Source: Enterococcus haemoperoxidus ATCC BAA-382 (lineage in GTDB: Bacteria > Bacillota > Bacilli > Lactobacillales > Enterococcaceae). From it: a stretch of DNA of 64,000 nt. Under the pieces are notes generated by a model that saw only the letters and a program-made list of their open reading frames with translations, made no database searches and was not told the origin of the DNA. Position 1 is the first letter of the stretch, and every line of letters starts with the position of its first letter. The position numbers were made by a program, and so were the translations under genes. Shown here in pieces: positions 2,632 to 9,303 of this stretch. The stretch covers positions 2,119,464-2,183,463 of the forward strand of contig NZ_KE136479.1 in the NCBI RefSeq assembly GCF_000407165.1, written 5' to 3'.

Positions 2632-3003
2632 ATGAAAGATATCAATGAATTTTTTTCAACTATCAGCGAACCCGAACATCGTAAACGCGCAGAAGAGTTG
2701 TTTGATTGGACGATGAAATCATATCCCCAATTCAACGTTGTCATAAAATGGAACCAACCTATGTTTACTGACCATGGAACATTCATTATTGCATACAGCT
2801 CGTCTAAAAAACATCTTTCAATTGCGCCAGAAACTGTCGCGATTTCAGCATTCAAAGAGGCTATTGAAAAATCTGGTTATCAACATACTGATAATATCAT
2901 TAAAATCACTTGGGATCAGCCGATCGACTTTTCATTATTGAAAAAAATCATTGATTATAACATTCAAGAAAAAATTGATTATACAAAATTTTGGAGAGAA
3001 TAG
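2632..3003 (+). CDS. DUF1801 family protein (YdhG-like)
   Basis: A 123-residue soluble protein of the DUF1801/YdhG fold. The family core is visible as RKRAEELFDWTMKSYPQFNVVIKWNQPMF, then TFIIAYSSSKKHLSIAPE and ITWDQPIDFSLLKKIIDYNIQEK. Some relatives, such as Bacillus Fra/YdhG, are described as frataxin-like iron chaperones; nothing in this sequence proves that role here. The ATG at 2632 follows an AGAGGACACAGCG ribosome binding site. A TATTATAAT-type -10 lies about 30 bases upstream in the divergent intergenic region. Confidence 0.8.
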   Translation: MKDINEFFSTISEPEHRKRAEELFDWTMKSYPQFNVVIKWNQPMFTDHGTFIIAYSSSKKHLSIAPETVAISAFKEAIEKSGYQHTDNIIKITWDQPIDFSLLKKIIDYNIQEKIDYTKFWRE

Positions 3004-3140: not shown

Positions 3141-3261
3141 GAGCGTGGGACAAAACTAAAAAACAGTTTTGTTTCGCGCTCTAAATCCGAATAAACGGCG
3201 AGAAAAAAGCAGATCCTTCGGAAATAAGCTGAACGCTTTTGTCTCGGCCTATTTTTATCGG
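3141..3261. repeat. Composite hairpin element downstream of the DUF1801 gene
   Basis: Two consecutive long hairpins. The first (3141-3181) pairs GAGCGTGGGACAAAACT with AGTTTTGTTTCGCGCTC. The second (3187-3261) pairs CCGAATAAACGGCGAGA with TCTCGGCCTATTTTTATCGG through an imperfect extended stem. The element looks like the dispersed palindromic units common in enterococcal intergenic regions and could also end transcription of the DUF1801 gene. No other copy was found in this window. Confidence 0.55.
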
Positions 3262-3487
3262 TATTTTATTAGACTTCTTAATCTTACAATGATAAATGGA
3301 TTTCAGATTGCGCGTTAGCCTATATTCTTCTTTTTTCCTTACCGAACAAAAGGTTAAGAATTTCTATAGCAAAAAAAGGCTGATACTTATAACACCAGAC
3401 CTACTTTTTACTCATTGCGTTTAAATTTTACTATTTTAAAAAACTTATTGACGAAACTCCTACCTTTAAGTTAAGATAATATTACAA

Positions 3488-3720
3488 AATTAAATAAAAA
3501 AAGGCGCTCTGCAGGAGGACCGCAAATCATCCCGCAGAGCCCTGTATTATCAGCACAAACTAATAATACAAGTTGCCTCCGTCAATAGTTCATTGACTAT
3601 TCTCATTGTACTAAAAGTAAGAAAAGATTGCTAGTCATTTTTACGATTTCAATGAATTAGTTCATGCATATTTAGCGAACGCTTCATGGTATTAGTTGCT
3701 GACTAATATCATTTTTTTTG
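3488..3720. ncRNA. Structured RNA element, tandem copy 1
   Basis: Not protein coding. In order: a minus-strand terminator hairpin (CTCTGCAGGA / TCCCGCAGAG, 3507-3539) followed on the minus strand by seven T; a second stem TGTATTAT / ATAATACA (3543-3570) around a CAGCACAAACTA loop; the motif AAGTTGCC; a third stem GTCAAT / ATTGAC (3581-3597); about 85 AT-rich bases; and a plus-strand terminator GGTATTAGT / ACTAATATC with eight T (3688-3719). Copy 2 lies 265-267 bases downstream with compensatory changes in the stems. A possible plus-strand promoter is TTGACG at 3448 with TAAGAT at 3472. The minus strand has a conserved TACAAT box near 3608. No toxin-like ORF was found. Confidence 0.6.
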
Positions 3721-3754
3721 GTTTTGAATTTATTTTCAGATAATTAGAGCGAAA

Positions 3755-3990
3755 AACAAAATAAACAGGCACTCTGTAAGAAGACCGCAAATCCTCTTAC
3801 AGAGCCCTGTATCGTCAGCACAAACTGACAATACAAGTTGCCCAGGTCAATGCGCATTGACTCATTCATTTTACCTAAAATTTGTAAGAAATACTAGCTT
3901 TTTTTTACAAGTTTTATTATTTGGAGAGTTAATGATGTCTTATTGAGCTTTTGCACGGTATTGGTTGGTGATCAATACCGTATTTTTTTC
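3755..3990. ncRNA. Structured RNA element, tandem copy 2
   Basis: This second copy has the same order of parts as copy 1: stem CTCTGTAAGA / TCTTACAGAG (3772-3804, perfect) enclosing the conserved AGACCGCAAATCC loop, stem TGTATCGTCAG / CTGACAATACA (3808-3835), AAGTTGCCC, and the perfect 16-bp palindrome GTCAATGCGCATTGAC (3846-3861). It ends in a terminator ACGGTATTG / CAATACCGT with seven T (3955-3989). Stem bases differ from copy 1 while pairing is mostly kept, which argues for selection on RNA structure. A mini-frame MMSY (ATG at 3931) follows a GGAGAG but is unlikely to matter. Confidence 0.6.
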
Positions 3991-4006
3991 GCTCTTTTTA
4001 TAAATA

Positions 4007-4066
4007 GTAAACACCAAGTTCTCCTTTTTTCTTAACCCTTTTCTATATTCATCTCTTGGTGTTTAC
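4007..4066. repeat. 12-bp inverted repeat
   Basis: GTAAACACCAAG (4007-4018) and CTTGGTGTTTAC (4055-4066) are perfect inverted copies around a 36-base T-rich spacer, just after structured RNA copy 2. A degenerate piece of the RNA element (AAGTTGCCGAGTCAATGCG, 4119-4138) lies a little further on, suggesting an eroded third copy. Confidence 0.6.
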
Positions 4067-4317
4067 GAGCTGATGTTACTGAAATTATTTGCCACCGTGC
4101 TTTTCTATTTAGTTTAAAAAAGTTGCCGAGTCAATGCGTACAACAACAAATGATAAAAAAATAAACATGCAAACAAATAATTTCCTAGATCTACAAAACT
4201 AAGTAGCTAAAAGTAATAAATAATTCCCAGTGCACCAGTGATAGTTAGATTCTGTCTGGCGGAAGACAGACTCTAGCTTTAAAATAAAAAATAGTGGTTT
4301 TGCAGAGCCAACTATTT

Positions 4318-4402
4318 CAAACAGTTGTTTAACTATGATGCTATTCCTTTTTAGTAAACTACCAACCAACCATTTTACCAATATAGATTAAACAACTGTT
4401 TG
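4318..4402. repeat. 15-bp inverted repeat with flanking T-run
   Basis: CAAACAGTTGTTTAA (4318-4332) and TTAAACAACTGTTTG (4388-4402) are perfect inverted copies 55 bases apart, followed by TTTTTTA. It could be a long-looped terminator or the ends of a tiny mobile relic. The minus-strand frame over it (4199-4381) has no codon-like character and I do not call it a gene. The rest of 4067-4549 shows nothing else recognisable. Confidence 0.5.
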
Positions 4403-7745: not shown

Positions 7746-7853
7746 AAGTCGCTCCTTCTTTAATGCGCTTCTCTCATTCTAATGAAAAAATGTTAGAAAA
7801 GCAATAGAGAGTTTGTTTCTACAGCTAAAAGAAGTAAAAATCAATTTTTCTAT

Positions 7854-8495
7854 TTAATTGATTTCAGCTAGTTTATTTTCAATCAGCTGAATCACTTGTT
7901 TTTTTGCTTCTTCACTTTCGATAAAATCATACTTATCTCCATCAATTTGGATTTTAGGGCTCTCATTGTATTCCTCAAACCATTTTTCATAGCGTTTATT
8001 CAATTCTTTATAGTAATCATACAAAGCTGGATCTTGTTCTACTTGCTCATAAGTTCGTCCCCGTCTTTGAATACGTTCCAACATCTTAGGAAATGATATT
8101 TTAATATGCACTAATAAATCTGGGCGCTTTTTATTCGCTGCAAAAGGCAATTCTTGCAGCATATTTTCTAATAAAGAATCATACACTTTTACTTCAGTCT
8201 CATTCGCTCTTCCTAAGTCAGCGTTTAAATGAAATAATAAAGAATCTTCATAGATCGAACGATCCAATACATTGTTTTCATGAGAAAGTGCTTGTTTAAT
8301 ACTATCAAATCGCTTGTTTAAGAAATAAATTTGTAGTAAAAATGCATATTTTTTAGGATCTGCATAAAATAAGGGTAATACTTCATTATCCTCAACTGAT
8401 TCATAAAAAGCTTCTGATTTTAAATGTTCTGAAATAATTTCTGTTAAACTTGATTTCCCTGCACCAATTGTACCTGCTAAAACGATCACTGCCAT
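7854..8495 (-). CDS. Deoxynucleoside kinase (dAK/dGK family)
   Basis: A 213-residue kinase of the deoxynucleoside salvage family that phosphorylates deoxyadenosine, deoxyguanosine or deoxycytidine in the cytoplasm. It shows the P-loop VLAGTIGAGKSSLTE at residues 5-19, the substrate-binding ESVEDNEVLPLFYADP, the DRS motif in NVLDRSIYEDSLLF, and the LID arginines IQRRGRTYEQ. Lactobacilli carry paired dak/dgk genes; only one is present here. It is 15 bases downstream of pnuC on the same strand, so a nucleoside/nicotinamide salvage operon is plausible. ATG 8495 follows a GGTAGGGAGTTCG site. Confidence 0.9.
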   Translation of the reverse strand: MAVIVLAGTIGAGKSSLTEIISEHLKSEAFYESVEDNEVLPLFYADPKKYAFLLQIYFLNKRFDSIKQALSHENNVLDRSIYEDSLLFHLNADLGRANETEVKVYDSLLENMLQELPFAANKKRPDLLVHIKISFPKMLERIQRRGRTYEQVEQDPALYDYYKELNKRYEKWFEEYNESPKIQIDGDKYDFIESEEAKKQVIQLIENKLAEIN

Positions 8496-8510
8496 CGAAC
8501 TCCCTACCTA

Positions 8511-9200
8511 TTAATAATTATTTTTTTTAATTTTTAGCCAATGGATCATGCCATAAATAGAATTGATTGTATACATGCAGTACATGACAAACAATGCATA
8601 GTCTCCCCCAGCATGGATCCCCGCTCTAAACCATAATACTATAGAAAACAAATTACCTAACAACCAAAAAACGAATTGTGACTGATATCTTTTGATCATC
8701 AATAGCATCGCTGTTGCCGACACACTAAATGTGACTGCATCCAGCAATTGCTGTGCATCATTGACGAAACCTAAAATAGAATAAGCAACAATGCCGATTC
8801 CCAGCCAAACGAATCCTGCATAGAGCCATTGAATGCCTTTTAAAGTTTTTACATCTGTCACATTACCTGATCCATCTTCGCTGACTTTTAACCATGTATA
8901 CAAACCTGTAATATCCATTACAATGTAAAAACTTTGAAGTAGAACTTCTGCGTATACTCGAGTTTTAAATCCAAAATAGCCGATGATCAGCGCACTTATA
9001 AAACCAAATATATAATTGCTAGCTTTTCCTTGGGCAATTAAGTTAACACAAATAATCCCGGACAAACCACCCACTAGTGTAATCCAGCTGGATGGATTAA
9101 AAACAAAAGCGATTAATTGTACCAAAATCATTGCAAATAAAAAAAGATAGTTCTTTCTTTTCCATCCTTTAAAGTCATTAATAATAAAATTTGACCTCAT
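8511..9200 (-). CDS. pnuC: Nicotinamide riboside/mononucleotide transporter PnuC
   Basis: This integral membrane protein (229 residues) has seven hydrophobic segments. The family signature is visible at LQSFYIVMDITGLYTWLKV and around QFVFWLLGNLFSIVLWFRAG, where the substrate-contacting Trp/Asn residues of PnuC lie. It brings in nicotinamide riboside for NAD synthesis by facilitated diffusion, usually driven by a cytosolic kinase. I start at ATG 9200 (MRSNFIIND), which has GAGAGGG 9 bases upstream, rather than the GTG at 9218. It is probably co-transcribed with the deoxynucleoside kinase 15 bases downstream. Confidence 0.9.
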   Translation of the reverse strand: MRSNFIINDFKGWKRKNYLFLFAMILVQLIAFVFNPSSWITLVGGLSGIICVNLIAQGKASNYIFGFISALIIGYFGFKTRVYAEVLLQSFYIVMDITGLYTWLKVSEDGSGNVTDVKTLKGIQWLYAGFVWLGIGIVAYSILGFVNDAQQLLDAVTFSVSATAMLLMIKRYQSQFVFWLLGNLFSIVLWFRAGIHAGGDYALFVMYCMYTINSIYGMIHWLKIKKNNY

Positions 9201-9288
9201 ATCAAACAACCCTCTCACTTGCCCTATTTATCATTTTCTGCAAAGATGACGACCTATTAAATTTACCCCTGTTTTCGTCCTAAGTCAA

Positions 9289-9303
9289 TGAGAATCCTTC
9301 TCA
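9289..9303. promoter_or_regulatory. Fur-family-like palindrome upstream of pnuC
   Basis: TGAGAATCCTTCTCA is a 6-3-6 inverted repeat 89 bases upstream of pnuC. It resembles Fur/PerR/Zur boxes in half-site and AT content but is not a full consensus match. The surrounding 9201-9441 gap shows no gene. Confidence 0.3.

Follow-up and report, generated by a model that had tools for sequence, protein, structure and literature searches.

A pair of predicted small RNA genes in Enterococcus haemoperoxidus belongs to a multicopy family whose loops differ between loci

Background

The described systems closest to the locus examined here are those in which an antisense RNA governs the attenuation of an opposing transcript, that of pT181 being a similar attenuation system. 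Two other groups also resemble it in part: the sibling sRNAs LhrC and the csRNAs, which are multicopy, tandem and structured, and the type I antitoxins such as RNA II of par and RatA, which are antisense RNAs overlapping another transcript. For Anti-Q/prgQ of pCF10 and mD of pAD1, PMC7117660 describes a branched antisense RNA with a U-tract; the leader that it faces either terminates or is read through, and in pAD1 there are two termination sites. For RNAIII/repR of pIP501, PMC4981023 describes antisense-induced termination in the leader, and the title of a reference cited there states that two loop pairs are required simultaneously.

Here we compare these systems with a repeat in a window of 64,000 nucleotides, the whole stretch of DNA that was analysed, from the genome of Enterococcus haemoperoxidus ATCC BAA-382. 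We conclude that the repeat is a pair of predicted small RNA genes and that it belongs to an undescribed multicopy family in enterococci and their relatives.

Results

The window contains a direct repeat of two copies, each of 94 nt (3493-3586 and 3758-3851), with 81% identity and a spacing of 265 nt. An earlier note on this DNA had described two tandem copies with an identical order of parts and with opposed terminators, and on re-reading the sequence we found both descriptions to be correct (Table 1). Some details needed revision. The T-tailed terminator reported for the minus strand is strong in copy A, which has a U-tract of seven T, and weak in copy B (TGTTTATTTTG). Stem 1, said to stay paired, has in copy A an A.C mismatch on the plus strand, which is a G.U pair on the minus strand, and the palindrome of stem 3, given as a perfect 16 bp, is a 16-nt palindrome of 8 bp. 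The eroded third piece is present, one base off the position first given for it (4119-4138). As had been noted, a toxin-like ORF is absent: ten ORFs of at least 20 aa overlap 3440-4200, and by eye none is plausible. Around the pair we also observed a perfect 12-bp inverted repeat (GTAAACACCAAG/CTTGGTGTTTAC, 4007-4066) directly after the terminator of unit B, a perfect 13-bp inverted repeat (AACAGTTGTTTAA, 4320-4400) with arms 55 nt apart, and a hairpin-like stretch (GAGCGTGGGACAAAAC...GTTTTGTTTCGCGCTC, 3141-3181) in the interval that separates the RNA pair from the gene at 2632-3003.

Table 1. Predicted features of the window locus, in window coordinates
Feature	Position	Strand	Basis or remark
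Candidate promoter of opposing transcript, TTGACG-18 nt-TAAGAT	3448..3477	+	kept in most aligned orthologues; family-wide promoter past second copy
Unit A small RNA, including -10 box	3493..3611	-	covariance model R1, 106.6 bits; fold -50.8 kcal/mol, z -8.0
Unit A RNA body	about 3598-3493	-	predicted start
Unit A promoter	-10 3605-3610; -35 TAGCAA 3628-3633; spacer 17	-	promoter profile of 195 units
Loop GACCGCAAATC	3518-3528, 3783-3793	plus-strand reading	positions counted by hand
Loop CAGCACAAACT	3551-3561, 3816-3826	plus-strand reading	positions counted by hand
L3 candidate address loop, unit A, in terminator hairpin	3518..3528	-	minus strand GATTTGCGGTC; common to unit B
L2 candidate address loop, unit A	3551..3561	-	minus strand AGTTTGTGCTG; identical in unit B
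Opposing-transcript terminator after unit A	3685..3719	+	family-wide terminator enrichment
Unit B small RNA, including -10 box	3758..3874	-	covariance model R1, 104.0 bits; fold -50.2 kcal/mol, z -7.3
Unit B promoter	-10 TAAAAT 3868-3873; -35 TAGTAT 3891-3896; spacer 17	-	sequence positions
L3 candidate address loop, unit B	3783..3793	-	minus strand GATTTGCGGTC; common to unit A
L2 candidate address loop, unit B	3816..3826	-	minus strand AGTTTGTGCTG; identical in unit A
J segment, unit B, predicted to pair with K in opposing RNA	3842..3855	+	family test; predicted fold of 3740-3990
K segment, immediately 5' of unit B terminator	3940..3958	+	family test; predicted fold; unit A pairing weak
Opposing-transcript terminator after unit B	3955..3989	+	family-wide terminator enrichment
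Third-unit remnant (AAGTTGCCGAGTCAATGCGT)	4120..4139	+	similar pieces elsewhere, e.g. L043 near 350, also C1:769

A covariance-model search, which the earlier note had proposed, found homologues with covariation in enterococci and relatives. The model (R1) was built from 18 minus-strand units, both window units being among them. It gives 18 copies in the E. haemoperoxidus genome, and other genomes of the genus carry up to 33 units each. Of the 105 genomes searched in the family, 61 had matches (10 of 17 genera), as did 68 of 395 in the order (15 of 80 genera), while in a sample of the class three of 398 genomes matched, all of them inside the order. Units confirmed by the model occur in E. caccae, E. 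moraviensis, E. avium, E. casseliflavus, E. lactis, Vagococcus allomyrinae and Isobaculum melis, and one distant group with units is probably Listeria, because a match to the Rfam family rli117 lies about 1.1 kb from the unit in locus L354. Eleven pattern matches outside Lactobacillales had no covariance-model match and were taken as chance. For the loci studied below, 102 (L228-L329) were built from 150 listed of the 189 matches found in seven genomes, a choice that did not deliberately take weaker copies, and loci L330-L347 were added by hand.

Rfam 15 gave no match in the window at gathering score. At the units of 19 related loci it likewise gave none, with only rli117 and TPP matched elsewhere in those loci, and the best enterococcal match below threshold, RefA1, reached 20.4 bits against the 94 needed. 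In literature search listings and in passages of PMC7724050, PMC12870237, PMC5593968, PMC7117660 and PMC4981023, we found no description of the family.

Each unit comprises a promoter and an RNA of about 105 nt that is predicted to form a 5' hairpin, a three-way junction, a second hairpin and a terminator hairpin. The promoters read TAGNAA/T at -35 and TACAAT/TAAAAT at -10, 17 nt apart; in a profile of 195 units, for which only units already having TA at -10 were retained, the hexamer TAGAAA stands at the fixed -35 place in 71 and TACAAT at -10 in 111. The window units fold more strongly on the minus strand (z scores in Table 1) than on the plus strand (z -5.4 and -5.2), none of 200 shuffles being as good in either unit on either strand. 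In a structure-fitted alignment (A2, the best 150 of 190 matches, fitted to the model), the non-Watson-Crick stem cells on the minus strand are G-U in 774 cases and A-C in 71, and in a MAFFT alignment of the 18 units the corresponding counts are 102 and 22. Because the deviations in the stems are mostly G.U when read on the minus strand and A.C when read on the plus strand, we conclude that the predicted structured product is the minus-strand RNA; the plus-strand RNA was rejected as the structured species on this ground and on its weaker fold scores. Across 146 distinct units, 92.3% of cells are paired against 76.0% after shuffling, and double-sided changes occur in 31 of 35 base pairs; none of 500 shuffles reached any of the observed measures. 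Covariation of this strength among the covariance-model matches bears out the reading as a structured RNA family.

The loops had been described as conserved, and in this respect our results differ: many copies are tandem pairs, and two apical loops, L2 and L3, vary between loci and species and agree inside the pair. The E. haemoperoxidus genome has seven tandem pairs, each with a common hairpin-2 loop. We found 100 tandem pairs in all, of which 77 (L228 upward) entered the similarity statistics and 75, from eight genomes, a permutation test. A common L2 string of at least 7 is present in 63 of these 75 pairs; when second copies were permuted within genomes, the mean number of matches was 8.7 and the maximum 21, and none of 10,000 permutations reached the observed value. 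The longest common L2 string is at least 6 in 70 of the 77 pairs against about 10% between loci, the other seven having fewer than six L2 letters in common. Mean similarity is 0.52 between loci and 0.84 within pairs for L2, and 0.59 and 0.85 for L3, whereas for stem S2 the values are 0.63 and 0.70. Since the stems do not follow the agreement of the loops, short gene conversion would be an unlikely source of it.

Within one genome the L2 words are almost all distinct (11 of 11 in G003 and 12 of 12 in G020, counts that include the words of pairs without agreement). At the window locus, compared across 18 same-genus genomes, L2 agrees in all 17 in which both copies were read, and its word takes five forms among those 17, G015, with one copy read, adding a sixth, although orthologous loci are not independent and these counts overstate the number of events. 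L3 mostly changes in both copies together; in G011 the two L3 loops have a one-base difference, and two genomes have one L3 that could not be parsed. If the coupling needs function, loops would be expected to diverge where a unit has degenerated. L234, L250, L277 and L327 are loci of this kind, with a degenerate first unit and loops that do not agree between the units. We looked for complements of L2 and L3 within 2.5 kb in 71 pairs, after dropping L234, L250, L277, L286, L327 and L343, whose units differ, and observed no enrichment besides the antisense strand, on which account a local mRNA target of the loops was rejected. A short site-specific address sequence seems to be written in both RNAs of each pair, probably serving the recognition of one opposing transcript and no other.

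The earlier suggestion of two opposed RNAs per unit agrees with the promoter and terminators predicted on the opposing strand, both scored by hand-made rules. An intrinsic terminator lies on that strand 20-180 nt upstream in 154 of 219 units, compared with 11 of 325 control windows; by the scoring rule used, the other 65 units have none. An opposing promoter with a score of at least 16 was found for 54 of 77 second copies, 2 of 77 first copies and 31 of 392 controls. In the predicted opposing RNA a segment J, adjoining the conserved AAGUUGCC, is complementary to a segment K that directly precedes the terminator, a complementarity retained although sequences differ between the subfamilies. In the 137 of 219 units that have a rule-called terminator and a readable junction, the J:K energy is -6.86, compared with -4.65 for J of dissimilar units and -3.70 for shuffled sequence, and energies of -6 or better are reached by 90 of the 137, compared with 27% and 14%, respectively. 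The pairing is weak for unit A (-2.5 and -3.9 among the values listed; -9.4 to -5.9 when the segment is lengthened), and with the longer segment a test of leader pairing did not set a locus apart from the others (-10.11 vs -10.38). The complement of J is part of the sRNA, which could therefore compete with K.

An ORF of about 95 aa follows on the opposing strand in 50 of the 120 loci examined; its median distance past the sRNA promoter is 172 nt. All 51 such ORFs lie upstream of the RNA pair and antisense (divergent) to it, and they have a clear ribosome site. We name this protein family PYQDI (examples are L230:2795-3067 and L333:5358-5630). A terminator stands between the unit and the ORF in 32 of the 50 loci, in 23 of them within 80 nt of the ATG, and none was found in 18. 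The interval reaches a promoter score of at least 16 in 0 of 50 loci and scores of 15.0 to 15.7 in 10 of 50, a score of 15 being reached by 127 of 392 random 165-nt windows; the ORF could conceivably have a weak promoter of its own. An AlphaFold model of the protein is mostly helical, with moderate confidence (pLDDT 71, pTM 0.47). A protein family search returned weak matches only, the best being DUF6548 at E 0.0064, and PDB sequence matches, at E 0.0047 or worse, were not believed. An opposing gene of any kind lies within 500 nt at 68 of the 120 loci and at 52 there is none. The window locus has no downstream opposing ORF, and the same holds for seven of the eight orthologues checked.

The wider surroundings of the units include cargo of several kinds. 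A cluster of LXG-toxin-like ORFs is near 31 loci, in mixed orientation, and its member in L346 passes the Pfam LXG cut-off. A small-ORF cluster near 16 loci resembles LXG partners; similar ORFs in L130 and L144 match TIGR04197, and the one cluster member examined, in L325, had no Pfam match. Cas3 follows at six loci: at L333, where Pfam confirms it, the gene (L333:1491-3926, minus strand) is found downstream of the G000 C2:176 pair, and five more loci are similar. In a polymorphic toxin array (L342:2939-6002), single RNA units with differing L2 words alternate with cassette genes, with an EndoU toxin-like ORF beside them. Pairing is thus not a universal trait, since most copies within toxin arrays stand alone. 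At some single-unit loci, chosen by eye, the opposing strand has a gene for sugar uptake in the leader position (solute-binding proteins in L102 and L127, PTS EIIC in L138 and L352, KdgT in L350). A second repeat, TTAAATAACACC...CTTATATATAAGGAAAAATAACAAAA, was observed at three pairs (L054, L065, L063); it lies downstream of their second unit by several hundred bases and is possibly a common promoter or operator.

Discussion

From these observations, we hypothesize that the window pair consists of sibling antisense RNA genes that control attenuation of an opposing transcript, a proposal that in our judgement stands evenly between right and wrong. What we read from the sequence in its support is the RNA family, its strand, the loop coupling, the opposing promoter and terminators, the J:K complementarity and the position of the ORF; transcription, loop kissing and the direction of the effect we infer. 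The two minus-strand genes make up one locus of the multicopy family. Opposing transcription, on the plus strand, would begin just after 3448-3477, and the RNA would pass through the antisense of the two units, with an intrinsic terminator following each. The minus-strand RNAs would probably recognise this RNA by loop-loop contact through L2 and L3, and then pair with J; because J would otherwise be paired with K directly before the terminator, binding of the sRNA would shift the nascent RNA toward termination. Either sRNA would have to recognise both leader units, which would explain why the loops are kept the same within a pair while the stems drift, and the loop differences between loci would keep the loci insulated from one another. 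Where it is present, the ORF of about 95 aa on the opposing strand is the likely regulated gene. At the window locus, where no ORF follows, the output would be the opposing RNA itself, or would have been lost.

A different explanation is that the units are trans-acting sibling sRNAs, similar to LhrC, with loops in common because they share a distant mRNA target, the opposing RNA being a sponge. The 52 loci without a nearby opposing gene, among them orthologues of the window locus, would suit such RNAs, as would the lack of enrichment of local loop complements beyond the antisense strand. However, L2 differs among almost all pairs of a genome and changes between genomes of the same genus, so that many distant targets would have to change along with the loops; the enrichment of opposing promoters, terminators and J:K pairing also argues against this explanation, which we consider unlikely. 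We regard as more doubtful still the proposal that a protein, perhaps the neighbour of about 95 aa, recognises the loops with locus-specific specificity: the gene is present at 50 of 120 loci, always in the same upstream and antisense position, but loop-coupled loci without it exist, the window included, and the confidence of the protein model is only moderate.

The earlier note had also compared the units with type I toxin-antitoxin loci, and two opposed RNAs per unit could be taken for the remnant of such a locus or for a solitary antitoxin. Against this, we saw by eye no short hydrophobic toxin ORF in window positions 3440-4200, the recurrent opposing ORFs encode proteins of about 95 aa with a clear ribosome site and a mostly helical model, and the opposing transcript would span the unit and end at its own terminator; we give such a kinship very little credence. 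That the family is a mobile or BOX-like repeat, structured as DNA only, is scarcely believable despite its many copies and the inverted repeat (I3) flanking unit B, as the G-U bias is strand-specific in both the fitted and the unfitted alignment, which speaks against a MITE-like repeat too, the promoters are conserved, the flanking genes are the same in several same-genus orthologues, and blastn gave no match of the window unit to plasmids or of the L065 unit to plasmids and phages, so that a plasmid or phage element was rejected.

Extending the antisense attenuation proposal to the whole family, we suggest tentatively that the chromosomes of enterococci and their relatives may contain a library of RNA switches insulated from one another. 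Each switch would have a locus-specific loop word, written twice in a tandem antisense pair and changing between related species, which would allow dozens of near-identical attenuators to share one cell without cross-talk, many of them at a dedicated small-protein gene and some beside competition or defence cargo (LXG, other polymorphic toxins, Cas3). The RNA family is unnamed and has up to 33 copies in one genome. If the loops are addresses, its antisense pairs would be a naturally occurring orthogonal set, from which one could learn how insulation between RNA regulators is maintained in a single cell and how a loop changes along with its partner. The family would also give a context for a recurrent uncharacterised protein family and for the non-coding parts of toxin arrays.

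Among the known systems, the type I antitoxins RNA II of par and RatA differ from the present family in that here no toxin-like ORF was seen and the terminator layout is another one. Unlike LhrC and the csRNAs, the present RNAs have loops particular to each locus, and their units are predicted to be overlapped by an organised transcript from the other strand. RNAIII of pIP501 governs plasmid replication from a single copy, unlike this multicopy family, and to our knowledge a tandem pair with common loops is not known for it; the likeness is that, going by the cited title, two loop pairs are required simultaneously there, as L2 and L3 would be here. Anti-Q/prgQ and mD of pAD1 resemble the present locus, as it is predicted, in having a branched antisense RNA that lies opposite a leader with terminators. 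By the model, Anti-Q is not a homologue, the best score of R1 over 1,501 bases of pCF10 (7800-9300) being 11.3 bits (E 0.058), and these are plasmid-borne single loci, whereas the present family is chromosomal and multicopy. Antisense attenuation itself is already known, and what would be new is the chromosomal, multicopy, paired and, as proposed, loop-addressed organisation.
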